From: Brevundimonas sp.
Lineage (GTDB): Bacteria; Pseudomonadota; Alphaproteobacteria; Caulobacterales; Caulobacteraceae
DNA length: 64,000 bases
NCBI RefSeq assembly: GCF_013912065.1
Contig: NZ_JACESA010000001.1
Span: forward strand, 248,001 to 312,000
Reading direction: 5' to 3'
The notes beneath the pieces are model-generated. The model was not told the DNA's origin. It ran no database searches and was given only the letters and a program-made list of their open reading frames with translations. Position numbers and translations under genes: made by a program. Positions within the stretch are counted from its first letter, which is position 1, and each line of letters starts with the position of its first letter. Below, piece after piece: positions 1-3,962 of this stretch.

Positions 1-337
1 CCCAGACCTGGACCTGAAGCCGGCCCTGGCGCGCCAGGCCCCAGCCGACGATCTCGCGCCACAGATGCTCGACCGCTTCGGCGTTCTCGGGCTGGGCCTT
101 CGACAGCATGCGCGACAGCACGGTCTGTTCGCGGTCCGGGCGCAACTTGGTGTGTGGACCGCTGGGCGCGTCCTTGGCGCGGCCGACGGTGGCGGCGACG
201 GCCAGCCGTTGTTCGAACAGGGCCAGGATCTGGTCGTCGATGGAGTCGATCTCGGCGCGCAGGGCGGCCAGGGCCTGTTGTTCGGGGGTCAAGGCGGCCA
301 CGTCAGGCCACACTTGCTGGATGCTGGAATTGGTCAT
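1..337 (-). CDS. Chorismate mutase, AroQ type (3' part outside window)
   Basis: Converts chorismate to prephenate, the branch step toward Phe and Tyr. About 112 codons are visible, starting at the ATG complementary to 335-337; the gene runs off the left edge. Residues around 24-45 read LRAEIDSIDDQILALFEQRL, the AroQ helix-1 pattern, followed by a conserved Lys/Arg stretch (GRAK) and LRPDREQTVLSRM, as in AroQ proteins. The next gene upstream on the same strand is prephenate dehydratase, which uses the product. There is no strong Shine-Dalgarno sequence: the bases just before the ATG belong to a segment that can pair with the upstream aromatic-rich leader ORF, so translation may be controlled by that structure. 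Family identity is clear; total length and any C-terminal fusion cannot be seen. Confidence 0.88.
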   Translation of the reverse strand, partial: MTNSSIQQVWPDVAALTPEQQALAALRAEIDSIDDQILALFEQRLAVAATVGRAKDAPSGPHTKLRPDREQTVLSRMLSKAQPENAEAVEHLWREIVGWGLARQGRLQVQVW

Positions 338-343
338 GGAGTT

Positions 344-467
344 CGGCTTTCGGCATGGGGGGATTTCGATATGCAGGGGCGGACAGCCGCTCTGATCCAG
401 AGCGGTCGCCGGCGAGACAGTCAGGGACGGAGTGCGCCCGACGCCTCAGCCGGCGTATCGAAAGCCG
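344..467 (-). promoter_or_regulatory. Candidate translational/transcriptional attenuator for chorismate mutase
   Basis: On the minus strand, the leader-ORF segment CGGCTTTCG (complement of 459-467) is perfectly complementary to CGAAAGCCG (complement of 344-352), which ends six bases before the chorismate mutase ATG. The overlapping leader segment TTTCGATA (456-463) can instead pair with TATCGAAA (364-371). A perfect 8-bp hairpin lies between (387-405). A ribosome stalled on the Tyr/Phe codons would cover the leader segment and free the initiation region. The complementarities are exact; the switch mechanism is inference. Confidence 0.5.
387..405 (-). terminator. Perfect 8-bp stem with 3-nt loop in the chorismate mutase leader
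   Basis: CCGCTCTG and CAGAGCGG flank the loop GAT. It lies 3' of the aromatic leader ORF and 5' of the chorismate mutase start. The sequence after the stem on the minus strand (CTGTCCGCC) is not T-rich, so this may be a pause or structural element rather than a true intrinsic terminator. Confidence 0.4.
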
Positions 468-547
468 TAGAAGCCATAGCCGAAATAGAGGCCGGACACC
501 GCGCGCGAACGGTCGAGAGAAACAGAAAGAACGCGCTGGCGGAACAT
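446..547 (-). CDS. Putative Tyr/Phe-rich leader peptide (33 aa) ahead of chorismate mutase
   Basis: ATG at 547, TGA at 446-448. The peptide is 33 residues and its C-terminal part reads LYFGYGFYGFRYAG: seven Tyr/Phe in the eleven residues YFGYGFYGFRY. It lies on the same strand between prephenate dehydratase and chorismate mutase, where a sensor of charged tRNA-Phe/tRNA-Tyr would be expected, as in the enterobacterial pheA leader. The aromatic codons overlap a segment (456-467) that can pair with two downstream segments, one ending six bases before the chorismate mutase ATG. The Shine-Dalgarno is weak (GGACCC). The reading frame, aromatic run and complementarities are seen directly; function as a leader is inference. 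The ORF could be chance, but this density of aromatic codons is hard to explain so. Confidence 0.6.
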   Translation of the reverse strand: MFRQRVLSVSLDRSRAVSGLYFGYGFYGFRYAG

Positions 548-566
548 GGGTCCGGGTCCGGTTATG

Positions 567-584
567 CGGATCGTTTGCGATCCG
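567..584. repeat. Perfect 7-bp inverted repeat after prephenate dehydratase
   Basis: CGGATCG and CGATCCG flank a 4-base loop (TTTG). It sits about 34 bases downstream of the prephenate dehydratase stop and 20 bases upstream of the leader ORF. It could end the upstream transcript weakly or be a protein-binding site. No T-tract follows on either strand. Confidence 0.4.
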
Positions 585-617
585 TGCGGCCTTAAAGCAC
601 GCAAAGACCGTGCGCCG

Positions 618-1205
618 TCAACCCTCGGCGGCGGCCAAAAGGACAAAACGGGTCCGGTTGTCGCTGGAATCCTGCAAATCGTTGCGCAGGATCGACAGGC
701 CATAGACCTCGGCCGCGCCAACCGGAGCGATGGCGGCTCGGCTGGGATCGCCCGCCTCCGCCACATCGCGCGCGGCGCCCGCCGTGTCGAAATGCTCGAT
801 GATCGTAAGATGCATGCTCTTCAGCGTGCCGGCGCACTGGGCCAGGGCGATCGGGTGGCTTTCGACCGTGCGGATATCCGCCATTCGGGCGCCCTCGATC
901 CCCATCAGGGCGTGGCGGATGGGCCGCCAGACATCGGCAAGGACCTTCAGCCCCGAATCGCGCACCAGGGTCGCCGCGGGCTCCACCACGCCGATGCTGG
1001 AGTTTTCCACAGGGATCAGAGCCATGTCGCACGCCCCGCTCGTCAGCGCGCCCAAGGCCTCGGCGAAGGTTTCGTACGGCACGGCCTGGTCCCAGGGACG
1101 CAGCGCCATGCAGGCTTCATGGCTGAATGCGCCCAACGCACCCTGAAACGCCACGCGGGAGTTGGCGGGCGTATCGTTCGGGCGGAGCATGTCGGTCTCG
1201 GTCAT
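618..1205 (-). CDS. pheA: Prephenate dehydratase, catalytic domain only (no ACT domain)
   Basis: Converts prephenate to phenylpyruvate in Phe synthesis. The 195-residue product starts MTETDMLRP; the ATG at 1205 has AGGA about six bases upstream, which favours it over a much longer in-frame extension. RVAFQGALGAFSHEAC near the N-terminus, LIPVENSSIGVV near residue 70 and DNRTRFVLL near the C-terminus are the PDT fold and its Thr-Arg-Phe catalytic signature. The chain stops five residues after that motif. Usual monofunctional enzymes (about 270-290 aa) carry a C-terminal ACT domain that binds Phe. No ACT-like sequence is visible in any frame downstream, so this is not an obvious frameshift. Feedback inhibition by Phe would therefore need another route, and the aromatic leader just downstream suggests one. 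Divergent from the oxidase gene at 1360. Confidence 0.85.
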   Translation of the reverse strand: MTETDMLRPNDTPANSRVAFQGALGAFSHEACMALRPWDQAVPYETFAEALGALTSGACDMALIPVENSSIGVVEPAATLVRDSGLKVLADVWRPIRHALMGIEGARMADIRTVESHPIALAQCAGTLKSMHLTIIEHFDTAGAARDVAEAGDPSRAAIAPVGAAEVYGLSILRNDLQDSSDNRTRFVLLAAAEG

Positions 1206-1359
1206 CGTCGATCCTGCTGGGCGTAGCCGGGGACTTGAGCCGGACGCCGTGGCCCCTTCGCGGCCATAAGTCATTGCCTTTGCGGCGCCCGCGCCCTCGG
1301 GACAAGCTCGGACGATCACTCTATCAAGGCCATGAGGCGCAACCGAGCGGAAATCGACC

Positions 1360-2565
1360 ATGACACACGCCATGCAGACCAGTCGCCGAACCATCCTGGC
1401 CGGCCTCGGAGGCCTCGGCGCCAGCAGTCTCGCCGGGTGCGTCACCGGCGCGGCCTCCCCAGTTCTTCCCGCGTCGCCGCGTTTCGTCGTTCCGCCCCTG
1501 GCGCCCCTCAGGATGCGAGCGGACCTGATCACCCGCATCACCGTCTGCCTGCGTCCCTTCCGTGCCGCTGGGCCGCGCATCGAGGTGGAGCGGATCGGCG
1601 ACAAGCGGGTGGTTCACAACTATGGCCACGGCGGCAGCGGCTGGTCCTTGTCCTGGGGTTCTGCCGAGATCGTCCGGGAGATGGCGATGCAGGGCGGCAC
1701 GGCCGAGGTCGCGGTGATCGGCTGCGGCGCCCTCGGCCTGACCTCCGCCACCCTGTTGCAGCGGGCCGGCGCCAAGGTGATCGTCTATGCCGCCGAACGC
1801 CTGCCCCAGACCCGCTCGGCCCGCGCCACCGGCCTGTGGACGCCGGATTCTCGCATCGCCGACGCCGACCGGATTGACGCCGCCTTTCCCGCCCTGTGGG
1901 AACGGATGGCCCGCGCGTCCTGGGCCATGCACCAGACCTATGTCGGACAGCCCGCTGAACCCGTGGCCTTCCTGGACCGATATATTATCAGCGACGGCGG
2001 ACCGAGACCGGCCCCAGCCGCTGCCGCTGCCTCGGCGCCGGCCGCCATCCGCTTCGCTGAATATGGCGACCGCCTGCACGACATCGTCCCCCGCTCTCAC
2101 GAACTCGCGCCGAGCCAACATCCCTTTGCGGGTCGCTTCGTGCGTCAGGGCGTGGCCATGCAGTTCAACATCGCCGAACTGGGCCACAGGCTGATGGCGG
2201 ACTTCATCGCGGAGGGCGGCCGGATCGAGACCCGCACCTTCAACACCCCGGCGGACCTGACGACCCTGTCCGAACCGGTGATCGTCAACTGTACGGGATA
2301 CGGCGCCCGCGCCCTGTTCGGCGACGAAACCATCGTTCCCGTGCGTGGCCAGATGACCTGGCTGCCGCCTCAGCCGGAGGTCCGCTACGGCCTCTATTAC
2401 AAGGGCATGGGCGTGGTCTCCCGACCGGACGGTGTGGGCGTCCAGAACATCGGCGGCGACATGTTCGGATATGGCGAGACCGACGAGACGCCCGACCGCC
2501 TGGAAGCGGAAAAGGCCATCGCCCGCATCGCCGCGCTTTACGAACGGGCCGAAACAGCCGCCTGA
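1360..2565 (+). CDS. FAD-dependent D-amino-acid-oxidase-like protein, Tat/lipoprotein signal, permuted domain order
   Basis: The 401-residue product begins with a twin-Arg signal (SRRTILAGLGG, Arg9-Arg10) ending in a lipobox-like SLAGC (Cys27), so it is probably exported folded with FAD and anchored to a membrane. The DAAO family signatures are all present: VCLRPFRAAGPRIEVE (62-77), HNYGHGGSGWSLSWGSA (86-102) and the FAD motif VAVIGCGALGLTSA (117-130). In ordinary DAAOs the FAD motif is at the N-terminus and the HNYGHGG block near the C-terminus; here they are reversed, as if the chain were circularly permuted. The product ends soon after the GGDMFGYGETDE segment, where the normal protein would continue into the block now at the front. 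Probable reaction: oxidative deamination of D-amino acids or a related imino acid. Substrate is unknown. Confidence 0.8.
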   Translation: MTHAMQTSRRTILAGLGGLGASSLAGCVTGAASPVLPASPRFVVPPLAPLRMRADLITRITVCLRPFRAAGPRIEVERIGDKRVVHNYGHGGSGWSLSWGSAEIVREMAMQGGTAEVAVIGCGALGLTSATLLQRAGAKVIVYAAERLPQTRSARATGLWTPDSRIADADRIDAAFPALWERMARASWAMHQTYVGQPAEPVAFLDRYIISDGGPRPAPAAAAASAPAAIRFAEYGDRLHDIVPRSHELAPSQHPFAGRFVRQGVAMQFNIAELGHRLMADFIAEGGRIETRTFNTPADLTTLSEPVIVNCTGYGARALFGDETIVPVRGQMTWLPPQPEVRYGLYYKGMGVVSRPDGVGVQNIGGDMFGYGETDETPDRLEAEKAIARIAALYERAETAA

Positions 2566-2582
2566 CGGAAGTCAGGCGGCTG
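2555..2582. terminator. Bidirectional terminator between oxidase and DAHP synthase
   Basis: A perfect 12-bp stem (CAGCCGCCTGAC / GTCAGGCGGCTG) with a GGAA loop overlaps the stop codon of the oxidase gene and lies nine bases from the stop of the convergent DAHP synthase gene. On the minus strand the stem is followed by TTTC, so it may chiefly end the DAHP synthase transcript. Confidence 0.7.
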
Positions 2583-2591
2583 TCGCTCGAT

Positions 2592-3962
2592 TCAGGCGGC
2601 CGCGGCCTGGGCCACGCGACCGGCCTTCAGCCGCTCGGCGACCAGGAAGGCCAGTTCCAGCGCCTGGTCGGCGTTCAGGCGCGGATCGCAGTGGGTGTGA
2701 TAGCGGTTGGACAGGTCGTCCTCGGTAACAGCCTGGGCGCCGCCGATGCATTCGGTGACGTTCTGGCCGGTCATCTCCAAGTGGACGCCGCCGGGGTGGA
2801 CCCCCTCGGCCTCCGCAACATCAATAAATGTCCGTACCTCGCCGAGGATCCGGTCGAACGGCCGGGTCTTGTAGCCGTTGCCAGCCTTCAGCGTGTTGCC
2901 GTGCATCGGGTCGATCGACCAGATGACCTTGCGGCCCGAGGCCTTCACTTCACGCATGAGCTTGGGCAGGCGCTCGCCGACCTTGTCGTGGCCGAAGCGG
3001 CCGATCAGGGTCAGCCGGCCCGAGACATTATCCGGGTTCAGGGCGTCGATCAGCGGCAGAAGGTCGTCCGCCGTCATCGTCGGTCCGCATTTCACGCCGA
3101 TAGGGTTCTTGATCCCCTTCATGAACTCGACGTGGGCGCCGTCCAGCTGACGGGTGCGCTCGCCGATCCACAGCATATGGGCCGAGGTGTCGAACCATTC
3201 GCCCGAACCGCCGTCCAGCCGCGTCAAGGCGCTCTCGACGTTCAACAGCAGGGCTTCGTGGCTGGTGAAGACCTCGACCCGGCTCAGGTCCGGATGGGTC
3301 TCGGGCGTGACGCCCACGGCCTCCATGAAGGCCAGGGCCTCGGTGATCTTGTCGGCCAGCTCGCGGTACTGGGCCCCGGCGGCGTTGTCGCCCGCGAAGC
3401 CCAGGGTCCAGCGGTGGATATTATAGAGGTCGGCATAGCCGCCGCCGGCGAAGGCGCGCAGCAGGTTCAGCGTCGAGGCCGACTGGTTATACGCCCGGAT
3501 CAGCCGCTGCGGATCGGGCACGCGCTCTTCGGGTGTGAACCCCATCCCGTTGATGATGTCGCCGCGATAGCTGGGCAGTTCGACTCCGCCGATCTCTTCC
3601 AGCGGCGACGAGCGCGGCTTGGCGAACTGGCCTGCGATCCGTCCCACCTTCACGACCGGCTTGCGCCCGGCGAAGGTCAAGACGACCGCCATCTGAAGGA
3701 TCAGGCGGAAGGTGTCGCGGATATTGTCGGTCGAGAACTCCTTAAAGCTCTCGGCGCAGTCGCCGCCCTGGAGCAGGAAGGCGTCGCCCCGCTCCACCAT
3801 CGACAGGCGGTCGGTCAGGCGCCGGGCCTCGCCCGCGAAAACGAGCGGCGGCAGGGCGCGAAGTTCGTCCTCGACGAGGGCGAGGGCCTTGGGATCCGGA
3901 TAGTCCGCCGGCATGTGCAGGGCGGTCTTGGTTCTCCAGCTTTCGGGGGTCCAGCGTGTCAT
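2592..3962 (-). CDS. 3-deoxy-7-phosphoheptulonate synthase, class II
   Basis: Condenses phosphoenolpyruvate and erythrose 4-phosphate, the first step of the shikimate pathway. The 456-residue product has the class II (plant/actinobacterial-type) signatures WTPESWR at the N-terminus, [15 protein letters not shown] around residue 62-76, [40 protein letters not shown] and DPMHGNT. Length is typical of class II. Together with chorismate mutase and prephenate dehydratase it makes an aromatic amino acid neighbourhood, although it is separated by the convergent oxidase gene. Class II enzymes are often inhibited by combinations of aromatic amino acids or by partner chorismate mutase; whether that happens here cannot be told. 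Starts at the ATG complementary to 3960-3962. Confidence 0.93.

Follow-up and report, generated by a model that had tools for sequence, protein, structure and literature searches.

The short region between the prephenate dehydratase and chorismate mutase (CM) genes of this Brevundimonas genome contains what, judging by its conservation in related sequences, is a real and conserved leader-peptide element. We consider it probable (roughly 0.7) that it is a cis-acting, ribosome-mediated system of translational attenuation that senses Tyr and Phe: the Tyr/Phe-rich codons of the leader can fold onto the start signal of CM, so that the leader is probably a gauge of the supply of these amino acids. 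The analysis was centered on a stretch of 64 kb (the window), on whose minus strand DAHP synthase, prephenate dehydratase, the leader ORF and CM follow each other in this order. The features of the locus are the following:

3962-2592, minus strand: DAHP synthase
618-1202, minus strand: prephenate dehydratase of 194 aa, without the C-terminal (ACT) regulatory part (Pfam PDT 1-178 of 181; NCBIfam PRK11899 5-183 of 283)
617-621, minus strand: TTGAC box, which shares bases with the stop codon of prephenate dehydratase and is probably the -35 element of the leader's own promoter (82 of 82 loci)
567-584, minus strand: hairpin of the leader 5' UTR, CGGATCG-CAAA-CGATCCG (stem of at least 5 in 49 of 54 loci)
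446-547, stop included, minus strand: leader ORF of 33 codons (33 aa), MFRQRVLSVSLDRSRAVSGLYFGYGFYGFRYAG (aromatic leader in 67 of 67 loci)
455-487, minus strand: aromatic codon run YFGYGFYGFRY, by predicted pairing also the mask (anti-Shine-Dalgarno) of the CM start region
456-466, minus strand: mask core GGCUUUCGAUA (UUU and CGA kept in 82 of 82 loci)
407-455, minus strand: hairpin 1, formed by the ORF end with its stop codon (CGCCGGCuGAGGCGUC...) and ...GACuGUCUCGCCGGCG (90.1% of cells paired)
387-405, minus strand: hairpin 2, CCGCUCUG-GAU-CAGAGCGG (88.1% of cells paired)
364-371, minus strand: UAUCGAAA, complement of the leader segment UUUCGAUA (7-pair helix, 87.6% paired in 64 sequences)
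344-352, minus strand: CGAAAGCCG, which includes GAAAG (351-347), the Shine-Dalgarno-like box of CM (GAAAG in 72 of 82 loci)
1-337, minus strand: CM (CM_2; Pfam 1e-17), start codon 337-335, extending past the window

The leader ORF and its conservation

As the original prediction had claimed, a 33-codon ORF with seven Tyr/Phe in a run of eleven codons lies between prephenate dehydratase and CM, and we confirmed it at 547-446 of the minus strand. This richness in aromatic residues is exceptional in the window, since at least seven Tyr/Phe were found in one of the 107,255 stop-free stretches of 11 codons read in six frames, that of the leader ORF itself, and in none of the 15,738 stretches that lie inside the 33 gene-like ORFs. 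The leader peptide matched no Pfam or NCBIfam family at E up to 1, and the search of window positions 1-3000 with the Rfam covariance models (E up to 10) gave five weak matches, none of them in 335-625. The CM that follows has a total length of 252 aa (complete ORF at L002 6337-5579). The source genome has further CM_2 matches at G000:C12:251582-251812 and G000:C34:91296-91529.

The CM protein search gave 78 loci, of which 69 were scanned for a leader and 67 were of the Brevundimonas type; L100 and L102 were scanned and are of another type, and the scan did not include L098, whose sequence begins almost at the CM gene, nor the eight distant loci L101 and L103-L109. An ORF with at least four Tyr/Phe per 11 codons near its end was present in all 67 Brevundimonas-type loci, and the ending YGFRYAG, read by eye, in 61 of them (the exceptions being L066, L079, L082, L095, L096 and L097). 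A leader was also recognized in 15 of 60 further upstream regions drawn from Caulobacteraceae. Nine of these belong to the same genus (L150-L158; L151 and L152 carry a shorter run, LYLGFRYAG and LYSGFRYAG), and those of other genera come from g10 (L110, L111), g9 (L113), g3 (L112, L114, whose peptides extend six residues past FRYAG) and, in diverged form, g17 (L121). The remaining 45 regions, all from other genera, showed no comparable leader, and aromatic runs of four in three of them were taken as chance. Two additional leaders were seen in G040 (g10) and G031 (g17). The conservation in close relatives on which the original prediction depended was therefore found, in 67 of 67 loci and three further genera, with a diverged form in a fourth.

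Two observations from other contigs should be mentioned. L054, on a contig labelled as a Bordetella MAG, carries a CM and a leader of the Brevundimonas type and is probably a mis-binned contig. A Sphingosinicella MAG (L100:2273-2390) has, ahead of CM, a TTGACA box and a leader-like ORF that contains Phe, Tyr and Trp codons and ends in SAFFYRSFISWFSGRYA.

For the analysis at the codon level we used a set of 82 loci, that is, the window and 81 others (the 67 mentioned above plus 14 chosen for showing the leader or element, L110-L114 and L150-L158); the g17 loci L121 and L376, as well as L100, have a diverged core and do not belong to the set. Near the ORF end the codon UUU followed by CGA is invariant in all 82 loci, and both are rare, since in the window's 33 gene-like ORFs UUU accounts for 8.6% of the Phe codons and CGA for 8.9% of the Arg codons. 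CGA is followed by UAC in 77 loci, by CGC in four and by CAC in one. Upstream of this core the codons vary and Tyr and Phe replace each other, and the aromatic character is kept in the reading frame (4.7 Tyr/Phe per 8 codons, whereas the other two frames give 0.7 and 1.0; the 82 loci contain 51 distinct 24-mers). Aromatic codons are commonest at -3, -2, 0 and +2 (90, 94, 100 and 94%), and no Trp codon occurs at codons -14 to +5 in any of the 82 loci.

The leader and CM seem to form a transcription unit of their own. The strict sigma-70 scan of 300-700 detected no promoter; the TTGAC box is present upstream of the leader in all 82 loci. Where the 5' UTR has room for it (54 loci), a hairpin stem of at least 5 is seen in 49, compared with 15% in shuffled sequences, and the sequence of the hairpin varies between loci. 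The 5' UTR is short in 27 further loci, and in 15 of them 34-36 nt separate TTGAC from the ATG, a spacing that suggests an mRNA beginning at the start codon; in the subgroup of L068, L071, L076 and their kin, about 35 nt lie between TTGAC and the likely leader ATG. In genomes G010 and G009 prephenate dehydratase is located elsewhere, so the leader and CM stand apart from it there.

Distribution of the element and the ACT part of prephenate dehydratase

The covariance model of the element (R1) found one place in the source genome, the present locus. With an E value no higher than 6e-9, it recognized a single place in each of 45 genomes out of the 199 searched in the family. These genomes are 39 of the 40 of the genus and six from three other genera (three of g10, one of g9 and two of g3). 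By coordinates, 44 of the 45 places lie just ahead of a CM match; in G040 the contig ends there. The genus member G092 has neither the element nor a CM match. Accepting any match at E up to 0.1, the number rises to 84 of 199 genomes, the weaker matches starting at 3.5e-5. Six weak places (G177, G047, G104, G039, G579 and G547), five from this search and one from that of the class, showed no comparable leader on inspection, and in one of them, L373, a run of four aromatics including Trp was taken as chance. In 385 genomes of the class, a draw that held few family members, nothing outside the genus scored better than 9e-5.

The prephenate dehydratase of the window ends where a regulatory ACT part would be expected, and we compared it across the family. 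A full-length homologue of 287 residues served as reference, together with the coverage of NCBIfam PRK11899, because Pfam showed no ACT domain even in control proteins. In 19 genomes from 15 genera without the element (g2, g4-g8, g11-g15, g19-g22) prephenate dehydratase matches the reference up to 284-286, whereas in seven genomes of leader genera (G087, G092, G003, G009, G010, G017 and G031) it ends at 184-190. The coverage of PRK11899 reaches 180-185 of 283 in the window, G010, G025, G017 and G092, versus 280-281 in two controls. It should be noted that against the full-length homologue the window, G025 and G192 gave a stray fragment, so that the first two are judged by NCBIfam and the end in G192 was taken from a reading of its sequence; the comparison was made without g16, which gave no match, and g18, where the gene is split. 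Genus by genus, the leader is present where the ACT part is lost, with the leader-less G092 as exception. As an association by genus it could be explained by a single shared ancestor, and the control proposed for the leader may replace the feedback that disappeared together with the ACT part.

Some upstream regions of CM in other alphaproteobacteria also contain short aromatic ORFs. An ORF with 4-5 Tyr/Phe in 11 was present in 13 of 60 regions and, besides the Brevundimonas locus L349, in three of a further 29 loci. Scattered chance was dropped as their source, since several share the reading VNVFF(D/A)F; a loose form of this pattern occurs in 38 of the 179 regions scanned, a number that includes repeats. 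The sequence TTTTCTTTG is present in 31 of 150 regions (21 of 60 in the alphaproteobacterial set and none of 60 in Caulobacteraceae), and the motif TGTCAAYGTTTTCTTTG stands ahead of CM in L265, L281, L294, L316, L342, L370 and others. In the VNVFF frame this motif has no constant start codon, and the residue before Asn is mostly encoded by GTC. Its opposite strand reads AAAGAAAAC-TTGACA, with TAGCTA about 18 bases on, and beyond these boxes there is a divergent ORF in all 10 of the 10 loci whose sequence extends far enough, an alpha/beta hydrolase in the three of three scanned. Given the lack of a constant start codon and the position of TTGACA/TAGCTA ahead of the divergent ORF, we read the motif as the promoter of the divergent gene and set it aside as a leader, although it may still be one. 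These regions gave no tRNA and no Rfam match at the gathering score. The A-rich stretch AAAGAAAAC is more conserved than a promoter would need.

Pairing of the leader with the CM start region

Both complementarities described in the original prediction are exact: nine bases between CGGCUUUCG (467-459) and CGAAAGCCG (352-344), the latter separated by six bases from the start codon of CM (ATG, 337), and eight bases between UUUCGAUA (463-456) and UAUCGAAA (371-364). The RNA from 493 to 335 folds at -72 kcal/mol (z -5.0); its 200 dinucleotide shuffles average -52.0 (sd 4.0), and not one of them reaches the native value. The claim that the two pairings would be alternatives needs a qualification: in the predicted fold of the window, UUUCGAUA pairs with 371-364 while an earlier UUCGGCU of the leader covers part of the CM start region simultaneously, so that the model places them as nested rather than as strict alternatives.

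Conserved stems are present in relatives; hairpins 1 and 2, like the 5' UTR hairpin and the TTGAC box, come in addition to what the original prediction had described. In the covariation alignment A1 (64 of the 82 loci, with statistics that ignore relatedness), 90% of cells are paired in hairpin 1, and 88% both in hairpin 2 and in the helix formed with 371-364; for the whole structure the value is 87.2%, and it falls to 36-51% if the partner columns are shifted by 1 to 3 positions. Changes on both sides affect 5 of 18 pairs (7 cells) in hairpin 1 and 4 of 8 pairs (49 cells) in hairpin 2, in such a way that the covariation appears above all in hairpin 2, as far as the alignment indicates. The outer helix UUUCGAU/AUCGAAA, paired in 87.6% in the 64 sequences, has no both-side changes; the helices of the mask lack them because their leader side is invariant. 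For the whole structure, the covariation score and the number of both-side-changed cells lie above all 500 shuffles, the number of both-side-changed pairs lies mildly above them (23 of 500 as high, kinship ignored), and further pair types show no excess (355 of 500 as high).

The conserved box next to CM resembles a ribosome-binding site. GAAAG stands 7-10 nt before the CM start, exact in 72 of the 82 loci and without an exact match in ten, and precedes at that spacing 6 of the 2877 ATG/GTG triplets of any kind in the window, be they true starts or not. In two relatives of the genus, the final part of the 16S gene contains GGATCACCTCCTTTCTAAGG (the gene of the source genome is incomplete), and we take the mature 16S to end in CCUCCUUUCU. 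GAAAG can pair with the CUUUC near this 3' end and so has the appearance of a Shine-Dalgarno box. When the RNA is folded with no ribosome on it, GAAAG is predicted to be paired with a probability of 0.81, and with the leader ORF of 0.78 (means of the 72 loci with exact GAAAG). Its predicted partners are leader codons -7 to +1, and the copy of the Phe/Gly codons that is used differs between loci; in L087, L090, L092 and L151 the box is predicted to pair little with the leader. Folding thus predicts that the CM start signal is masked by the leader RNA when this is free of ribosomes.

To model the position of the ribosome, the nucleotides it covers were forced to be unpaired, and the unpaired probability of CM positions -16 to -6 was read in 80 of the 82 loci (L112 and L114 lack a stop codon at that place). 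On average this probability was 0.28 with no ribosome and 0.27-0.31 with the ribosome at codons -11 to -6; it rose to 0.37 at -5 and to 0.50-0.54 for codons -4 to 0, and was 0.43-0.46 for the positions between +1 and the stop. The window alone gained less, with 0.12 in the free RNA, 0.31-0.41 at codons -4 to 0 and 0.10-0.12 from +1 on. With the mask at codon -3, 22 loci went from 0.28 to 0.59. Shuffling abolished this gain of 0.30: it was -0.01 after shuffling of the last 45 nt and +0.03 after shuffling of the leader segment, with 44 shuffles each. In silico, then, the RNA structure depends on the position of the ribosome in the leader, and the box is predicted to be opened only from codons about -4 to 0, around the invariant UUU, or up to the stop in sequences other than that of the window. 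Codons -3, -2 and 0 are mostly where the model wants aromatic residues, and +2 fits less well. The claim that stalling would release the initiation region is borne out by these predictions and their controls for the late codons; for a ribosome held at the first aromatic codons, the model predicts no effect on the box. Moreover, a ribosome at the stop codon gives some exposure (0.43 in the 80 loci), so that the contrast between waiting and ending is modest.

Proposed mechanism, alternatives and known systems

What the sequences themselves show is the ORF, the conservation of its codons and of the RNA, the covariation, the GAAAG and TTGAC boxes and the lack of a recognizable terminator. From these data we infer a transcription start, translation of the leader, sensing of Tyr and Phe and an effect on CM, which would be connected as follows. 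A promoter of its own would give an mRNA with the leader ORF and then CM. When charged Tyr-tRNA and Phe-tRNA are ample, ribosomes would complete the leader and depart, and the freed Phe/Gly codons (UUUCGG, GGCUUU and GGCUUUCGAUA) would pair with UAUCGAAA and with the GAAAG of CM. The two hairpins would keep the ends close, and CM would be poorly translated. When Tyr or Phe is scarce, a ribosome stuck on the last aromatic codons would cover the mask and leave GAAAG free for initiation.

A broader reading, which we offer tentatively, is possible. The Phe/Gly codons would do double duty, gauging the charging of Phe-tRNA and Tyr-tRNA and providing interchangeable masks for GAAAG, as repeats that resemble the CCUUUCU tail of the 16S; and since this mRNA brake on CM occurs where prephenate dehydratase has lost ACT, feedback control would have moved from protein to mRNA within one family. 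The element would be a compact, genus-wide case in which the sensing codons themselves mask the start signal of the next gene, and in which two amino acids are joined at their branch-point enzyme, coinciding with the loss of an allosteric domain. It lets the replacement of enzyme feedback by RNA control be asked within one family, and it adds a conserved RNA with no Rfam match.

Among the alternatives, classical transcription attenuation, in which translation of the leader decides whether RNA polymerase stops (at an intrinsic or Rho-dependent site) before CM, as in the enterobacterial pheA, has the most to recommend it, and we regard it as unlikely. The layout of TTGAC box, short control peptide and hairpins is shared with such systems, hairpin 2 is a short G+C-rich stem, and the ilvBN leader of Caulobacter is described as a transcription attenuator (PMC4117421). 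Against it, there is no U-run, no terminator-like site was found in 300-700, a 4-T run within about 45 nt of hairpin 2 occurs in only 3 of 82 loci, and the conserved feature proximal to the gene is a start-signal box. That the conserved RNA serves mRNA stability, or a plain coupling of leader and CM translation, with no sensing of amino acids, would agree with the fact that the most invariant part is at the RNA level and that, in the model, the box is likewise opened by a ribosome standing on the stop codon (mean of 80 loci). We find this improbable, because the stretch before the invariant core stays aromatic despite varying codons and Tyr/Phe swaps, and because its aromatic residues correspond to the pathway in which CM, encoded downstream, takes part. 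An action of the peptide in trans, as outlined for peTrpL of Sinorhizobium (PMC7298713), is suggested by the nearly invariant C-terminal GFRYAG; it appears very improbable, since the invariance reaches synonymous positions, which pairing explains, and the N-terminal half of the leader varies. Finally, a chance ORF with chance complementarity, for which a G+C-rich genome with plentiful open frames gives some occasion, can practically be dismissed in view of the 67 of 67 loci, the single stretch in 107,255 and the fold z of -5.0.

Translational attenuation by the Tyr/Phe leader can be compared with several known systems. In enterobacteria, the leaders of pheA and pheST act on the termination of transcription and end in an intrinsic terminator. 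With them the present element shares a short Phe-rich peptide ahead of a phenylalanine-related gene and the choice of the RNA fold by the position of the ribosome; it differs in its mixed Tyr and Phe codons, in CM as target and in that no terminator is seen. The logic of pheA and pheST, which the original prediction had invoked, is accordingly retained for the Tyr/Phe leader and the position-dependent fold and given up for termination. In leaders of the ermC type the waiting of the ribosome is caused by a macrolide and not by shortage of an amino acid. What they have in common with our case is that a ribosome waiting in the leader ORF frees the masked start signal of the next gene; the ermC leader, according to PMC2965389, controls translation.

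The literature search, which covered titles and the beginnings of abstracts and did not extend to the survey of attenuators in proteobacteria from 2004 that PMC1273637 cites, returned no Tyr/Phe leader ahead of CM or in Caulobacterales, the latter in agreement with the original prediction. In the same bacterial family, leader ORFs ahead of the amino-acid genes ilvBN, trpS and ileS of Caulobacter crescentus are described in PMC4117421, whose excerpt deals with other amino acids and names no Phe/Tyr leader. The uORFC-8-2 cysS motif of Rhodobacterales and the uORFC-13-1 aroF motif, as summarized in PMC8632094, combine a leader ORF, control codons and a conserved RNA. They were likewise found by comparison, one being alphaproteobacterial and one of the aromatic pathway, and they differ in genes and lineages, uORFC-13-1 being located at a terminator. 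The LEU element of actinobacterial leuA, proposed computationally, has a base stem in which a run of leucine codons pairs with the Shine-Dalgarno box (PMC1262725, as outlined there). Compared by description, it differs from the present element, which is not a member of it, in its amino acid (leucine), gene (leuA), phylum (Actinobacteria) and pseudoknot; in both, as described there and as predicted here, codons for the amino acid pair with the Shine-Dalgarno box, and the two would work alike.
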